Source: Akkermansia muciniphila (GTDB lineage: Bacteria > Verrucomicrobiota > Verrucomicrobiia > Limisphaerales > BJHT01). Taken from it: DNA of 64,000 bases. The stretch is from NCBI GenBank assembly GCA_945861535.1, contig CAMAUZ010000011.1, positions 1 through 64,000 on the forward strand, read 5' to 3'. Shown here one piece after another: positions 10,213 to 57,541 of the stretch. Each line of letters opens with the position of its first letter. Position 1 is the first letter of the stretch. Under the pieces are notes generated by a model, which saw only the letters and a list, made by a program, of their open reading frames with translations, did no database searches and was not told where the DNA came from. Made by a program: the position numbers and the translations under genes.

Positions 10213-10486
10213 CGGGCGCATCTCAGTTTCCGGCAACGATCGGTGCGCGTTGGCGCAGTCCCGCAGGGACGACCGAAAATAGCCCAGCCCTTCAGTGCTG
10301 GGCGTATGGTCGGGAAACCGGAAAGTCCCGTCAGGGACGAAAGCGGCGAGATGGCGCACGGTTTCTTTCGTCCCTGCCGGGACTGGCTTCGCTACCGACA
10401 CGGACCCTGAAGTGCTGGGCTATTGTCTTTCGCCCGCTGGGCTGGGGATGGGAACCAGAGGGCGTGCAATAAACTGAGATGCGCCC
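10213..10486. repeat. Three-layer nested palindrome in a divergent promoter gap
   Basis: The outer arms are 10213-10229 and 10470-10486 (GCGCATCTCAGTTT). The middle arms are 10278-10303 and 10405-10424 (AATAGCCCAGC...GCTGGGC). The inner arms are 10320-10343 and 10365-10389 (AAGTCCCGTCAGGGACGAAAG). The 590-base gap between moxR and the DUF1549 gene has no convincing gene; its remainder (10490-10735) must hold the promoter of the plus-strand pair, but no clear -35/-10 was recognised. Parts of this cassette recur at 49925-50060. Confidence 0.85.
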
Positions 10487-49180: not shown

Positions 49181-49828
49181 ATGAAAACCGCCCGCTCCCC
49201 CCGCTCCTTCGCCGCCCTCACTCTCGCGTTCGTCTTCGCCGGCATCGGCGGGGTCCGCGCCCAAGCGTGGATCAAATACGAAGCCCAGCCCGGCAGCAAA
49301 GTCCGGATCAACGGCACCTCGACCATTCACGACTGGTCGGTCGAGAGCCAGATGATCGGCGGCGCGATGGAACTCGAGACCAGCACCGCGGCCGATCTCA
49401 AATCGATGAAAGTGAAGCCCAAGGTCGAGGTCGCCATCCCCGTGCGCTCGCTCAAGAGCGGCAAAAAGCCCATGGACACGGTGATGTACAACGCCATGAA
49501 GCAGACCGATCATCCGAAGATCGAGTATCATCTGACCCAGCTCACGCCCGCCGGCACGGGCACTGCTGCGGACTCTTACGTCTACACCGCCGTCGGCGCG
49601 CTCACCGTCTCGGGCGTAACGCGCACCAACTCGATGACCGTGAACATCAGCCGCATCGACAAGACGCAGTTGAAGGTGACGGGCACCACCAACCTGAAGA
49701 TGACCGACTTCGGCATCAAACCGCCTGCGCCCGACCTCGCGCTGGGCCTCATTAAGACCGGCGACGACATCAAGATCACCTTCGAGTGGATCACCGCCCA
49801 GACCGAGACGGCGACGAAGACACCGTAA
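49181..49828 (+). CDS. YceI-family protein
   Basis: 215 residues from the ATG at 49181. Signal peptide (about 1-27), then the YceI lipocalin-like fold: STIHDWSVESQMIGG, VAIPVRSLKSGKKPMDTVMY, TDHPKIEYHLTQL, GALTVSGVTR and MTDFGIKPPAPDLALGLIKT. Family members bind isoprenoid or amphiphilic compounds in the periplasm. Probably cotranscribed with the Gfo/Idh gene. Confidence 0.9.
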   Translation: MKTARSPRSFAALTLAFVFAGIGGVRAQAWIKYEAQPGSKVRINGTSTIHDWSVESQMIGGAMELETSTAADLKSMKVKPKVEVAIPVRSLKSGKKPMDTVMYNAMKQTDHPKIEYHLTQLTPAGTGTAADSYVYTAVGALTVSGVTRTNSMTVNISRIDKTQLKVTGTTNLKMTDFGIKPPAPDLALGLIKTGDDIKITFEWITAQTETATKTP

Positions 49829-50932: not shown

Positions 50933-51745
50933 TCAACCACACACCGCCGGTTGGGTCTGCGGCACCAGCGTCAACGTGGGGCTGGGGGTGTCCTGCGAGG
51001 TGGACGCAAGGTGCGTGTGGGTGGCCCCGATTTTTTGGAGGCGGTGGTTGACGATCCGGTGCGCGAGTTCGGGGCGATTGCAGTCGCGGCTGAGGTGGCC
51101 GAGGTAAATGTGACGCAGGTCGGCGTGCATGATCTGCTCGGCGACATCCGCGGCGGCGTCGTTGGAGAGATGGCCGTGGCGGCTGAGGATGCGCTGCTTC
51201 ACGCTCCACGGGCGCTTGGTGTCGTCCTGCAACAGTTTGAGATCGTGATTGGCTTCGAGGACGAGCGCGTGCGAGGAGCGGACGCGTTCGAGCACGAGCT
51301 TGGTGGCGTGCCCGAGGTCGGTCAGGAAGCCGATGTTTCCCGCCGAAGTATGCAGGAGAAAGCCCACAGGATCATACGCGTCATGCGGCACGGCAAAAGT
51401 GTCCACCGTGAGGTCGCCGACCTCGAAGGAAGCACCCGTGGTGAAGAGCCGGAAGTCCAGGCGCGTGGCGGACTGGGCCTGGATGACTTCCTGGGTGAGG
51501 CGGTTGCAGTAGATGGGAATCTGATGCTTGGCGCACAAAGCCGAGAGGCCCTGGATGTGGTCGCAGTGCTCGTGGGTGATGAGAATACCGGTGAGGGTTT
51601 CGGGCGTGCGGCTGAGCGTGGCGAGGCGCTGGCGAATCTGCCGTCCGCTGAAGCCGGCATCAATGAGGATGCGGGTGTCGTCCGCTTCGAGGTAGGCGCA
51701 ATTGCCGGCGGATCCGCTGCCGAGGATGGTGAATTGGACGGGCAC
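50933..51745 (-). CDS. WalJ/YycJ-like metallo-beta-lactamase-fold hydrolase
   Basis: 270 residues from a GTG at 51745, chosen because conserved sequence starts at FTILGSGSAGN. Metal motif THEHCDH (His-x-His-x-Asp-His), DAGFSG and GHATKL, then ANHD and LGHLSRDCNRP. WalJ-type proteins are cytoplasmic nucleases linked to the WalKR system in Firmicutes; their substrate here is unknown. Stands alone on the minus strand, divergent from nusA. Confidence 0.88.
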   Translation of the reverse strand: MPVQFTILGSGSAGNCAYLEADDTRILIDAGFSGRQIRQRLATLSRTPETLTGILITHEHCDHIQGLSALCAKHQIPIYCNRLTQEVIQAQSATRLDFRLFTTGASFEVGDLTVDTFAVPHDAYDPVGFLLHTSAGNIGFLTDLGHATKLVLERVRSSHALVLEANHDLKLLQDDTKRPWSVKQRILSRHGHLSNDAAADVAEQIMHADLRHIYLGHLSRDCNRPELAHRIVNHRLQKIGATHTHLASTSQDTPSPTLTLVPQTQPAVCG

Positions 51746-52051
51746 AAAACGACGGTAGAGAGCGGCGCGGGGTGGGGCAACGCTTTTCCCGAGTGGCCCC
51801 ACCGGGACGCGCCTCCCGAGGGTGTTGGCAGGCAAAAGCGGACCCCATTACCACGCCGCCGAAGTGCCGGTGTGTCGCCGACCAGCCATCCCATCTCGCT
51901 CTGCCGCGAGAACCGGACCCGGTCGGAAGTCGCCCGCCATTTCCAGCAGGCGGCGGCGGGTGCAGCGGACGCGGCCAGGCCGCGGAGCAGGGCCGGATTC
52001 GCCGAGACGCCCCAGCAACGGCAAGCTGTCCGCCCAGTTTTCGGTTGAAGC

Positions 52052-52080
52052 TTGACGTTCCGTCCGGGCCTTCCTACCTT
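52052..52080 (+). promoter_or_regulatory. Candidate sigma-70 promoter of the nusA operon
   Basis: TTGACG (52052-52057), 17 bases, TACCTT (52075-52080). It lies 105 bases before nusA and directly ahead of the leader terminator at 52123. The region 51836-52051 contains no recognised gene. Confidence 0.5.
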
Positions 52081-52122
52081 GCCGCCGCGAAAATCTTAGA
52101 AGCTGGTAGTCCAGCGCGGGGC

Positions 52123-52151
52123 AAGTCGGTGATATTTCAACCGACTTTTTT
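52123..52151 (+). terminator. Intrinsic terminator/attenuator in the nusA leader
   Basis: AAGTCGGT (52123-52130), a 9-base loop and ACCGACTT (52140-52147), continuing into six T (52146-52151). It sits between the candidate promoter and nusA, 34 bases before the chosen start, and the only upstream gene is on the other strand, so it cannot terminate another plus-strand gene. Confidence 0.7.
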
Positions 52152-52184
52152 ATTCCCCTGATGAGACGGACTAGCGCGACACTT

Positions 52185-53480
52185 ATGATGAAGGACGAAT
52201 TGCTGGCGGTACTGGAATATTGGGAGCGCGAAAAAGGCGTGCCCAAGGCCGTCCTCATTGCAGCGGTCGAGGAAGCGTTGGTCGCGGCCGCCAAAAAGTC
52301 GGTCGGCCCCGCCCGCGACCTGCGGGTATCCATTGACCCGAAAACGGGGATCGTCCGGGCGTTTGCCAAACTGGTGGTCGCCGAAAAGGTGCTCAGCAAA
52401 CACGATCAGATCACCGTCGCCGACGCGCGGCGCATCCGGGCCGACGCGGAGATCGCCCAGGAAGTGGAGATCGAAGTCACCCCGACGGGCTTTGGGCGCA
52501 TCGCCGCCCAGTATGCTAAGCAGGCCATTTTGATGCAGGTCAGGAAGTACGAGAAAGAACTCATTTTCAAGGAATTCCGCGACCGGGTCGGCGAGATCGT
52601 GTCGGGGATTGTCCGCCGGTTCGAACGGTCGGACGTCCGGATCGACTTGGGAAAATACGAGGCCGTGATGCCCAATCGCGAACGCGTGCCGACCGAGGAA
52701 TACCAGATCGGCGACCGCGTCTCGTGCTATGTCAAAGCGGTGGATCAGTCAGGCGGCGGGCCGGAGATCATTCTCAGCCGCGCCGATGCGCAATTCGTCA
52801 TCCGACTGTTCCGGCGCGAGGTTTCCGAAGTCAGCGATGGCACCGTCGAGATCAAGGCCATCGCCCGCGAGCCGGGGTTTCGCACCAAGCTGGCCGTCTA
52901 TTCCCGCGACGAAAAGGTGGACCCGGTCGGCGCGTGTGTCGGGCTGCGCGGACAGCGGGTGAAGAACATCGTCCGCGAGCTGAACAACGAGAAAGTGGAC
53001 ATCATCCGGTGGGATCCCAACATCAAGGTGTACCTCACCAACGCCCTGGCCCCGGCCAAGCTGAAGTCGTTCGACGTAAATGAAGTCGGCCGCCGCGTGA
53101 AGGTGATCGTCAGCGAAGACCAGCTCTCGCTGGCCATTGGCAAGCGCGGCCAGAATGCGCGCCTGACCTCCCGGCTCACCGGCTGGCAGGTGGACATCGA
53201 CGCCGAGCATGTGATCACGCTCGGGTTTGACGAGAAGGTGGCGGCGGCGGCCACCCGGTTCGCGACGATTTTGGCGATCAGTCCCGAGCACGCGATGGTG
53301 CTGGTGAAGTCGGGATTTCACACGCTGGAAGACCTCTTGCAGGCGGACGTGGCCGACCTGGAGAGCATCCCGCAATTAACTGGACACGCCGCATCGATCA
53401 TGGATGCTGCCCGCGCTGTTGCTGCGCGAGGTACCGAAACCCCGGCCGAACCCCCAAAAGGTAAGTCAGATGAAACCTGA
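52185..53480 (+). CDS. nusA: Transcription termination/antitermination factor NusA
   Basis: 431 residues from the ATG at 52185; an ATG at 52161 would add eight. N-terminal RNA-polymerase-binding domain (about 1-130), S1 domain (about 135-205, GIVRRFERSDVRIDLGKYEA), KH1 and KH2 (CVGLRGQRVKNIVREL; AIGKRGQNARLTSRLTG) and a C-terminal helix-hairpin-helix (GFHTLEDLLQADVADL). Starts the nusA-infB-rbfA-nrnA series. rimP, often upstream, is not in this location. Confidence 0.96.
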   Translation: MMKDELLAVLEYWEREKGVPKAVLIAAVEEALVAAAKKSVGPARDLRVSIDPKTGIVRAFAKLVVAEKVLSKHDQITVADARRIRADAEIAQEVEIEVTPTGFGRIAAQYAKQAILMQVRKYEKELIFKEFRDRVGEIVSGIVRRFERSDVRIDLGKYEAVMPNRERVPTEEYQIGDRVSCYVKAVDQSGGGPEIILSRADAQFVIRLFRREVSEVSDGTVEIKAIAREPGFRTKLAVYSRDEKVDPVGACVGLRGQRVKNIVRELNNEKVDIIRWDPNIKVYLTNALAPAKLKSFDVNEVGRRVKVIVSEDQLSLAIGKRGQNARLTSRLTGWQVDIDAEHVITLGFDEKVAAAATRFATILAISPEHAMVLVKSGFHTLEDLLQADVADLESIPQLTGHAASIMDAARAVAARGTETPAEPPKGKSDET

Positions 53481-53547
53481 CACAGACACCCTTCCGGGCT
53501 GATCCCATGAAAACCATGTGGCCGGCCAAGCACGGAAGAAATGCATT

Positions 53548-56163
53548 ATGCCCGTTCGAATTTACGACATCGCTAAAAAGCTTGGTATTGAAAGCAAGGA
53601 CGTCTTGGTCAAGGCCAAGGAACTGGGCATAACGGCCGCCAAAGTCCCCTCCAGCTCGCTCGACAAAATCACCGCCGAATTCCTCGAAGAAAGTTTGGCC
53701 GCCTTTGCCAAACCGCGCGAGTCCGCCGCCCCACCATCCTCCCCCGGCGAGTCCGCCCCGGTCGCCGCTCCCAAAGAGGAACCGCCGCCGCTCCCACCCC
53801 TGCCCGAACTGATCGTCATCACTGCGCCCGCACCAGTGCCGGTCGTACCGGAGGTGCCCGCGCCTCAACCGATCACCGCCGAACCGCTGCCGTCCGGTGT
53901 CGAGCCAGTCGCGACCACCGAGACCGCGCCCGCTCCGTCTCCCGTCCCCGTCGCCGGAGAAACCGGCCTCGCCACCCCGCCGCCCGCGGTCGCCGCACCA
54001 ACTCCCGCTCCCGCGCCAGCATCCGCTCCCGTTCCGACGCCGCCCCCCGCGGCGGCTCCCAGTTCCAAACCGCCTGCTGCGGCGCTTGGCTCCCTCGTCG
54101 GCCGCGTCGATCTCAGTTCAATGGGCTACCGCAGCCCGCGCGCGGACGAACGCGCGGCAGCCAAGACTCCCCCGCCCCGCCCGGCCCCGCCGACGCGCCA
54201 AGGTCAGGCCCGACCCGGTCAGGACAACCGCGGTGGCGATAATCGCGGTGGCGATCAACGCCGCGGCGGCTACAATCAGCCGCAATCTTCCCGTCCCGCC
54301 CCCGAACCCGCCAAGCCCGCCGAACCCAAGTTCGTCCCGCTCACCACCGGCGAGATCATCACCATGAAGCCGCCCATCGCCATCCGCGATCTGGCCGAGC
54401 GGCTCAAACGAAAACCCTTCCAGCTCATCGCCGACCTGATGGAGTTGAACGTCTTCGCGACGGTCAACCACACCATCGACGAGGTCGTCGCGCAGAAGCT
54501 TTGCGCCAAACACGGGTTCCGCTTTGAAGTGGAGAAACGGGAACGCGGCCAGGGCATCGTTCACGCCCCGAAAAAAGCCAAGGCGAACGACGATTACGAC
54601 ACCGAGGACAAACCCGGCACCCTCAAGCCCCGCCCGCCCGTCGTCACCATCATGGGCCACGTCGATCACGGCAAAACCTCGCTGCTCGACGTCATCCGCA
54701 AAGCCAACGTCGCCGCGGGTGAAGCCGGCGGCATCACCCAGCACATCGGCGCCTACACGATTTCCTTCCCGCACCCGGAGCGGAAAAACGAACTCCAGCA
54801 GATCACCTTCCTCGACACGCCCGGCCACGCGGCCTTCAGCGCCATGCGCGCCCGCGGTGCCAACGTCACCGACATCGTCGTCCTCGTCGTCGCCGCCAAC
54901 GACGGCGTCATGCCACAGACCATCGAGGCGCTCAAGCACGCCCAGGCCGCCAGCACTGAAATCCTCGTCGCCGTCAACAAGTGCGACCATCCCAACGCCA
55001 ACCCGATGCGCGTGCGCCAGCAATTGCAGGAGCACGGTCTCACCTGTGAAGAATGGGGCGGCAAAACCCTCTTCGTCGATGTCTCCGCCATCACCAAGCT
55101 GGGAGTGGACAAGCTCCTCGAAGCCATCCTGCTCCAAGCCGAAGTCATGGAACTCAAGGCCAACCCCGACCGCATGGCCAAGGGCAACGTCATCGAGTCC
55201 GGCATGGAACCCGGCGGCCCCACCGCCACCGTCCTCGTCCGCAAGGGCACGCTCCGCACCGGCGACATCGTTTTGTGCGGCGAGTTTTACGGCAAAGTCC
55301 GCGCGCTCATCACCGAAGAAGGCAAGCGCCTGAAAGAAGCCGGCCCTTCCACCGCCGTGAAATTGCTCGGTCTTAACGGCGTTCCCTTCGCCGGTGCCGA
55401 CTTCGCCGTCGTCGAGTCCGACAAGGCCGCGCGCGATGTCGCCGAGCAACGCCTCTTCGCCCGCAAAGGCGAGGAAAACACCGACAGCACCGCCGGCCGC
55501 AAAGACCGCGTCACCCTCGAGGGTCTCTTCGCCGCGCTCACCGCCGAGCAGGCCAAAGTCCTGCGCGTCGTCATCAAAGGCGACACGCAAGGCTCCGTCG
55601 AAGCCATCGTCGAGGAACTCAAGAAAATCGATTCCACCAAGGTTTCCATCGACATCATCCTCCATGGCGTCGGCACCATCACCGAGAACGACATCAATCT
55701 CGCCGCCGCCTCCAAGGGCGTCGTCCTCGGTTTCCACACCCGCATCGACACCGGCGTGGCCGACAAAGCCAAGCATCAGGGCGTCCAGATCAAGCTCTAC
55801 ACCATCATCTACGAACTCGTGGACGAGGTGAAAGCAGGCATGGCCGGCCTGCTCGATCCCATCGAACGCGAAGTCGTCATCGGGTCCGCCGAAGTCCGCA
55901 AACTCTTCGCGCTCTCCAAGGGCGGCAATGTCGCCGGTTGCTCCGTCGCCTCCGGCCGCGTGCTCAAGGGCAAGGTCCGCGTCATGCGCCGCAAGAGCCT
56001 CATCTACGAGGGCAACACCCTCTCGCTCCGCCGCTTTCAGGACGAGGTCACCGAGGTTCGCGCCGGCATGGAATGCGGCATCCGCATCGATGGCTTCAAC
56101 GACTTCCTCATCGGCGACCTGATCGAGTCCTACACCGTCGAACGCGTCGCCCAAAAGCTCTGA
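53548..56163 (+). CDS. infB: Translation initiation factor IF-2
   Basis: 871 residues from the ATG at 53548, preceded by GGAAG. N-terminal helix ([17 protein letters not shown]), a long Pro/Ala-rich and Gly/Arg-rich linker (about 60-250), IF2_N domain ([19 protein letters not shown]). GTPase domain with G1 GHVDHGKTS (about 370), DTPGHAAF and NKCD, then domains II-IV ending [13 protein letters not shown]-dependent fMet-tRNA delivery to the 30S subunit. It follows nusA after 67 bases. Confidence 0.98.
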
Positions 56164-56180: not shown

Positions 56181-56558
56181 ATGTCCTCCCTCCGTCTCCA
56201 GCGAGTCGGCGAGCTGCTCAAGCGTGCCATCGGCGAGATCATCCAGCGGGAAATCCCGGTGGGCGAAGCCGGCTTGATCACCGTCAACGAAGTCCAGCCC
56301 GCCACCGATTTGCGCAGCGCCAAGGTCTTCCTCGGCGTCATCGGCAGCCCCGAGCAACGCCGCCACGCCCCTGCCCTGTTGCACAAAATGCGGCCCCGCA
56401 TCCAGTCGCTCGTCGCCCAAGCCGTCGTGTTGCGCTACACGCCCGTCCTCCATTTCGAATTGGACACCACCATCGAGCGCGGTAACCACATCCTGAAGCT
56501 GATCGAGGAAATCGAGAAAACCCTGCCCCCGGAACCCAAGCCCGCGCCCCCGGCATGA
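56181..56558 (+). CDS. rbfA: Ribosome-binding factor A
   Basis: 125 residues from ATG 56181. KH-like RbfA fold: LQRVGELLKRAIGEIIQREI, DLRSAKVFLGVIG, LRYTPVLHFELDTTIERGNH. It matures 16S rRNA in the 30S subunit. 17 bases after infB; its TGA overlaps the ATG of the next gene. Confidence 0.95.
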   Translation: MSSLRLQRVGELLKRAIGEIIQREIPVGEAGLITVNEVQPATDLRSAKVFLGVIGSPEQRRHAPALLHKMRPRIQSLVAQAVVLRYTPVLHFELDTTIERGNHILKLIEEIEKTLPPEPKPAPPA

Positions 56559-57541
56559 AGCCCGCCCCCAAAACCATTCAGCGCATTCTCGAAGGCATCG
56601 CGCAAAGCGAGACGATCTGCGTCGTCGGCCACATCCGCCCGGACGGCGACTGCATCGGCTCGCAGCTTGGCCTCACACTCGCGCTGCAAAACGCCGGCAA
56701 AAAAGTCACCTGCTGGAACCAAGACCCCGTCCCCGCGAAACTCCACTTTCTCGACCCCGACAAAATCGTCCAGCAACCCCGCGCCGGCAGCGCCTTCGAC
56801 TGCGTGATCGCCACCGACTGCGCCAGCTTCGAGCGCCTCGGCTCCGTCGGCGAATTCATCAAGGACCGCAAACTCCTCATCAACATCGACCACCACGCCA
56901 GCAACACCCGCTACGGCGATTGCAACTGGATTTCCCCGCGCGAACCCTCCAGCGGCGAACTCATCCTCAAGCTCGCCAAGGCCGCCCGCTGGCCCATCAC
57001 GCCGCCCATCGCCGACTGCCTCTTCACCGCCATCTCGACCGACACCGGCTCCTTCCAATACGCCAGCACCCGCCCCGCGACCTATCATGCCGCCGCCGAA
57101 CTGGTGAAACGCGGTGCCGATCTCGCCAAGGTTTGCAACGAGGTTTACCAATCCTATCCCCTTTCCCGCGTCCGCCTCCTGCGCCACGTTTACAATCACT
57201 TTCACCTCCTCCACCAGAATCGCATCGCCTACTTCTGGTTGAAGAAAGCCGACTACGACCGCACCGGCGCGGCGCCCAGCGACAGCGAAGGTCTCATCGA
57301 CCACATCCGCGACATCGAACCCGTGGTCGTCGCCTGCACCTTCGAGGAAGCCGAACCCGGCCTCACCCGCATCAGCCTCCGCTCGAAAAGCCAGAAGGTG
57401 AATGTCAACACCATCGCCACCCAGTTCGGCGGCGGCGGCCACCACGCCGCGGCCGGCGCGCGCACGCCCGGCTCCCCGCTCTCCGTCCAGCGCCGCGTCC
57501 TCAAAGCCATCAAGCAGGCCATCGACGCTGCGGGCGAATAG
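56555..57541 (+). CDS. nrnA: DHH phosphoesterase, NrnA-type
   Basis: 328 residues. DHH motifs GHIRPDGDCIGS, DCASFERLG and NIDHHASNT, and C-terminal DHHA1 with QFGGGGHHAAAGAR. NrnA proteins degrade short RNAs and dephosphorylate 3'-phosphoadenosine 5'-phosphate; some homologs hydrolyse cyclic dinucleotide products. ATGA overlap with rbfA shows translational coupling and matches the common rbfA-nrnA-truB order. Confidence 0.92.
   Translation: MKPAPKTIQRILEGIAQSETICVVGHIRPDGDCIGSQLGLTLALQNAGKKVTCWNQDPVPAKLHFLDPDKIVQQPRAGSAFDCVIATDCASFERLGSVGEFIKDRKLLINIDHHASNTRYGDCNWISPREPSSGELILKLAKAARWPITPPIADCLFTAISTDTGSFQYASTRPATYHAAAELVKRGADLAKVCNEVYQSYPLSRVRLLRHVYNHFHLLHQNRIAYFWLKKADYDRTGAAPSDSEGLIDHIRDIEPVVVACTFEEAEPGLTRISLRSKSQKVNVNTIATQFGGGGHHAAAGARTPGSPLSVQRRVLKAIKQAIDAAGE

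Follow-up and report, generated by a model that had tools for sequence, protein, structure and literature searches.

The window, meaning the whole 64,000-nucleotide stretch of DNA analyzed here, contains a four-gene operon in the order nusA-infB-rbfA-nrnA, of which nusA (52188 to 53480, plus strand) is the first gene. Its product matches TIGR01953 (385 bits) and carries NusA_N, S1 and KH domains; alignment with relatives places the start codon at 52188, with a further in-frame ATG at 52185. The same operon encodes infB (53518 to 56163, plus strand, TIGR00487), rbfA (56181 to 56558, plus strand, start taken from the open reading frame, TIGR00082 matching from 56229 on) and an nrnA-like phosphoesterase (56555 to 57541, plus strand), the last matching NF053633 at 139.5 bits, below the curated cut-off of 350. 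The gene 5' of nusA encodes a metallo-beta-lactamase fold protein (50933 to 51835) on the minus strand, divergent from nusA, and the closest plausible plus-strand gene 5' of the leader ends at 49828. This arrangement bears out the first-pass annotation, which held that the terminator ahead of nusA has no other plus-strand gene to serve. Two plus-strand open reading frames that overlap the leader region (51772 to 52161 and 51822 to 52055) look spurious, and a Pfam search with the first of them gave no match. No tRNA or tmRNA gene, such as the E. coli metY, was found across the window, and an Rfam search returned no family at the nusA leader. The sole Rfam match in the window at gathering score is an Acido-Lenti-1 RNA at 10257 to 10302 on the minus strand (51.6 bits).

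The nusA leader combines a promoter with a hairpin followed by a T tract, all on the plus strand. Direct reading gives a -35 box TTGACG (52052 to 52057) and, after a 17-nt spacer, a -10 box TACCTT (52075 to 52080), from which we infer a transcription start near 52087. The terminator hairpin, P3 (52123 to 52147, -11.3 kcal/mol), consists of two arms, AAGTCGGT (52123 to 52130) and ACCGACTT (52140 to 52147), that form 8 bp around a 9-nt loop, and it is conserved in relatives. The T tract TTTTTTATT (52146 to 52154) begins with a run of six T (52146 to 52151), two of them inside the P3 stem, and continues with ATT; relatives carry purine-TT at this place. Read on the opposite strand, P3 has no T run. 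A simple promoter and terminator scan of the window listed neither element, and returned fewer sites than in shuffled sequence. Its limits (a loop of 8, a TATAAT match) shut both elements out, the P3 loop being one base above the limit and TACCTT agreeing with TATAAT at only 3/6 positions, and the scan was dropped as a test. Both elements are instead accepted as real because they are kept across relatives.

The relatives compared include Limisphaerales, Pedosphaera and ‘subdivision 3’ genomes, the order of the window being Limisphaerales-type Verrucomicrobiota. The nusA gene was located in 106/116 related genomes and at 61 loci of a genome collection, and in 140/141 genomes of the class and 141/145 of the phylum; from the last two sets, leaders were taken from about one or two genomes in each family. 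A terminator was scored where a hairpin with a folding energy of -6 kcal/mol or lower preceded a T run no more than 160 nt from the start. By this measure, a terminator is present in 160/160 same-order upstream sequences, compared with 117/480 (24%) of their shuffles; this set was freed of exact repeats but retains near-copies since two collections overlap, it skips loci with less than 130 nt upstream, and it reduces to 113 non-redundant leaders. A terminator was also scored in 61/66 upstream sequences from other orders (shuffles, 45/198) and in 34/40 leaders from other classes, and was absent from the remaining 5/66 and 6/40, respectively. As a control, the same measure found a terminator ahead of 2/30 other window genes tested. 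The proposal that stem and T run should be conserved in relatives thus held throughout the order. The promoter is equally persistent: TTGAC occurs in 159/160 same-order leaders, TAnnnT follows 16 to 18 nt from it in 152/160, and the median distance from the -10 box to the hairpin is 40 nt, so that the promoter lies at a near-constant distance. From the T tract to the start of the nusA match the median is likewise 40 nt. Comparison with relatives therefore confirms the TTGACG-17-TACCTT promoter and the 8-bp hairpin with six T before nusA that the first-pass annotation had read from the window, and its coordinates were right.

The arms of P3 are constrained to the level of individual bases. Among the 113 non-redundant same-order leaders, 104 carry AGTCGG in the 5' arm and 110 carry CCG[AG]CT in the 3' arm; six T follow in 106 of the 109 leaders with a CCGRC arm, then mostly purine-TT, with mostly C next. 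In an alignment of 86 of the 113 leaders, from which 27 divergent ones were excluded by hand, the P3 columns are mostly invariant or nearly so, 3/7 pairs never vary, and no pair has changed in both partners. The terminator is thus constrained in sequence within the order, and does not covary there.

This element is also a single-copy feature. The pattern AGTCGG..CCGRCTTTTTT occurs exactly once in 96/112 genomes and is missing from the other 16; a reversed control pattern gave 3 matches in total. When handles and coordinates were compared by hand, 94 of the 96 single matches proved to be nusA leaders; the other two come from G017, where the match is at a contig end, and from G053, and neither assembly gave a nusA match. 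Counted from the gene side, leaders match the pattern in 96/103 genomes with a fetched nusA locus, a set that overlaps the 112-genome set and is not identical to it. The idea of a wider regulon was rejected, a second copy of the motif being found in 0/112 genomes. That the terminator exists and serves nusA is close to certain.

Beyond the order, one stem pair changes identity. Earlier tallies by regular expression fix several of the pairs, and the tally was redone on folded hairpins, with the counted pairs left free; three ‘A-G’ rows of the regular-expression tally were pattern misplacements. In the folded hairpins, pairs 4 to 6 read C-G, G-C, G-C in 104/113 same-order leaders, compared with G-C, G-C, G-C in 44/66 leaders from other orders and 21/40 from other classes; in another 7/66 other-order leaders the last of the three is A-T. 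Pair 4 alone is C-G in 108/113 same-order leaders versus G-C in 56/66 and 30/40 leaders from other orders and other classes, respectively, so that both sides have changed. Covariation of the stem in relatives, a check proposed at the outset, is accordingly seen across the phylum, at pair 4, but not within the order, at 0/7 P3 pairs. The commonest form outside the order is AGTGGG..CCCACTTTTTT followed by a T run, and its stem includes the GGG..CCC core reported in the rimP-leader. The window stem is most plausibly this element after a compensatory flip of one pair from G-C to C-G, a change that would most simply have occurred a single time, close to the base of the order. A fast NusA tree needed two stem-pair changes, the second within the order, where one row was scored G-C.

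Further structure surrounds the terminator. P2, an upstream hairpin (GCTGG-TAGT-CCAGC, 52102 to 52115, plus strand), covaries in the 86 aligned leaders, with changes on both sides at 3/5 pairs; across the 113 leaders its region folds more stably than any of 100 shuffle sets, and 109/113 form a hairpin of at least 5 bp. P4, a small hairpin after the T tract (52155 to 52165, plus strand), reads CCCC..GGGG in many relatives and is weakened in the window (-1.6 kcal/mol on its own); over the 113 leaders its region, too, exceeds each of 100 shuffle sets in folding. A long-range pairing, P1, beats all 200 cross-species permutations and all 100 shuffle sets over the 113 leaders, the within-sequence shuffles being the safer control since the comparison of own with permuted partners is open to a base-composition effect. 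Leader by leader, P1 falls in the best 5% of its own shuffles in 15/113 cases (5 to 6 expected), and in the window leader it is within chance against its own shuffles. In one group of leaders, L055, L057 and L058 with their relatives, a very long helix (-27 to -35 kcal/mol) may enclose the terminator by pairing of the 5' end with the sequence preceding the start codon. A search for an antiterminator competing for the P3 arms found flank pairing no better than in shuffles (55 and 69 of 100 sets were as good).

RimP is a widespread ribosome-maturation factor, and rimP is usually the first gene of the nusA operon. In the present phylum the protein is undetectable. RimP_N was found in 0/58 relatives and 0/145 phylum genomes; in the class, 2/141 genomes gave matches, both weak and inside open reading frames of more than 1000 aa, and none came from the 126 good-quality genomes. 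RimP_C was found in 0/58 relatives, the set in which the C-terminal domain was searched. In each case 10/14 control genomes were positive; a RimP so divergent that it escapes both models may still be present.

On these grounds the leader probably functions as a promoter-proximal attenuator of nusA-infB-rbfA-nrnA, under feedback by NusA-stimulated termination, and the attenuator of the nusA operon postulated in the first-pass annotation is well supported by the conserved stem and T run. RNA polymerase would start near 52087 and form P2, then P3 with its six-U tract. Part of the polymerases would stop after ∼65 nt and the remainder would read through into nusA. Read-through is expected because the terminator sits between the promoter and the operon and serves no gene upstream, and termination is assumed to be partial, not complete, because nusA needs to be expressed and no second promoter is evident. 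NusA would stimulate termination at a suboptimal terminator, in which a purine interrupts the U tract after six U, so that high NusA would lower expression of the operon and low NusA would permit read-through. NusA-dependent terminators have been described as suboptimal with U-tract interruptions; the distal interruption is found here, and is common enough to be weak evidence. A competing antiterminator is neither needed nor seen in this mechanism. Because the search for competing structures gave none, a protein that modulates termination is indicated, and NusA is the best candidate regulator, favored because of the precedents in B. subtilis, S. agalactiae and E. coli and because RimP is undetectable.

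The attenuator could be real and respond to a different signal: NusG, events linked to Rho, RNA chaperones of the cold-shock type or translation-related signals from this operon, which serves ribosome assembly. Many B. subtilis terminators are described as depending on NusA and NusG jointly, and the E. coli operon is reported to be strongly cold-induced (PMC6511841). NusA, however, is itself a product of the operon, and other species offer a precedent for it at the corresponding operon; we regard another regulator as unlikely, while giving it some weight. It is improbable that the conserved element acts chiefly as a folded 5' end for the nusA mRNA, serving stability or RNase III processing, with termination minor and P1 forming after read-through. 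The behavior of P1 over the 113 leaders, its length in L055 and L057 and the RNase III sites described in the E. coli region (PMC6511841) speak for such a role, but P1 is individually supported in just those 15 leaders and not in the window's own, and six T followed by purine-TT is a termination-like signature. Less probable still is a small trans-acting RNA, the short terminated transcript itself being the product and lying before nusA by chance. It would have its own promoter, a conserved P2 and a terminator, and the rimP leader is among the listed ProQ-associated RNAs; yet the element is present in one copy per genome and is apart from nusA only in the two assemblies in which no nusA was found, and its T tract precedes the start of the nusA match by a median of 40 nt. 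No source of nusA mRNA other than read-through is evident. Finally, although intrinsic terminators often close genes, a terminator that ends an upstream transcript and is unrelated to nusA control is hardly credible here, with the upstream gene on the opposite strand, a conserved promoter just 5' of the hairpin and no T run on its other strand.

NusA might read the stem by sequence, and the order-wide flip from G-C to C-G might have been accompanied by a change in its RNA-binding surface, an idea that we consider quite doubtful. The candidate residue for stem reading is Q256 (∼52953 to 52955), directly after the GLRG loop of the first KH domain; all 58/58 proteins of the order have Q here, and 27 others mostly carry M, A, S or L. 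The GLRG loop is a GxxG-type motif. Q256 is one of 7 sites that separate the order from the rest in a NusA scan, which is no evidence of coevolution, given few sites and full phylogenetic confounding. The compensatory flip of an otherwise nearly fixed pair offers a clean test of sequence reading by NusA. Near the start of the gene, the first Leu codon among nusA codons 4 to 7 (about 52197 to 52208 in the window) is TTA in 51/93 relatives versus 41/1357 Leu codons in the gene body; relatives have a T-rich nusA start (GATTTTTTAGC), and the window uses TTG.

More broadly, the promoter and leader of nusA can now be annotated reliably in a poorly studied phylum. Moreover, a phylum without detectable RimP that keeps an attenuator before nusA amounts to a natural deletion experiment, and points to NusA as the sensor. 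A literature search covering open-license papers, without supplements, found no description of this nusA leader in Verrucomicrobiota, and the main text of Naville and Gautheret (2010, PMC2965389) leaves Verrucomicrobia unmentioned.

That study describes the closest counterpart, the rimP-leader, for which NusA is named as the best sensor candidate and RimP as the alternative, the choice being left open; the argument there is that, with no visible antiterminator, a protein modulates termination. The likeness is close: the (rimP-)nusA-infB operon has an intrinsic terminator in its 5' UTR, no antiterminator is visible in the common form, the stem joins a G-rich 5' arm to a C-rich 3' arm, both conserved to an unusual degree, and NusA is the proposed sensor. 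The window element differs in lying directly before nusA, with rimP not the first gene and RimP undetectable, in having the stem AGTCGG..CCGACT instead of GGGc(...)gCCC, a motif that the window stem lacks, and in the covarying hairpin P2 that this order adds upstream. The RF01770 model, which was built for Gammaproteobacteria and scores the E. coli control at 102 bits, gave no match to the window leader up to E = 10 and none to 20 class leaders up to E = 5. From its position, its operon and the phylum-wide GGG form, the window leader is probably a diverged homologue of the rimP-leader.

Functional precedent comes from three further systems. In B. subtilis, NusA is autoregulated through NusA-stimulated termination in the 5' leader (Mondal et al. 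2016, as described in a 2025 review, PMC12288461). The operon, the architecture and the proposed logic are all shared; there, however, the result is experimental and rimP (ylxS) is the first gene, whereas here the logic is a proposal and nusA comes first. In S. agalactiae, a single start site at rimP-nusA yields two RNAs, one short and one long, and negative feedback by NusA has been proposed (PMC4448216). The promoter-proximal terminator is common to both, but termination there occurs 31 nt after the start, compared with the ∼65 nt predicted here, and rimP is present. To call the window leader a compact version of the E. coli arrangement, as the initial annotation did, is fair, but given the distance in S. 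agalactiae its compactness is not unusual. In E. coli, transcripts of the operon rise when NusA-dependent termination is impaired (PMC6511841). The metY-rimP-nusA-infB operon resembles that of the window in being preceded by terminators and in its control linked to NusA, and differs in starting with a tRNA gene and rimP, with two leader terminators 5' of rimP, where the window has one hairpin and nusA first. The window leader would thus work like the known rimP-leader attenuator and the autoregulation of B. subtilis, but from a position directly before nusA.
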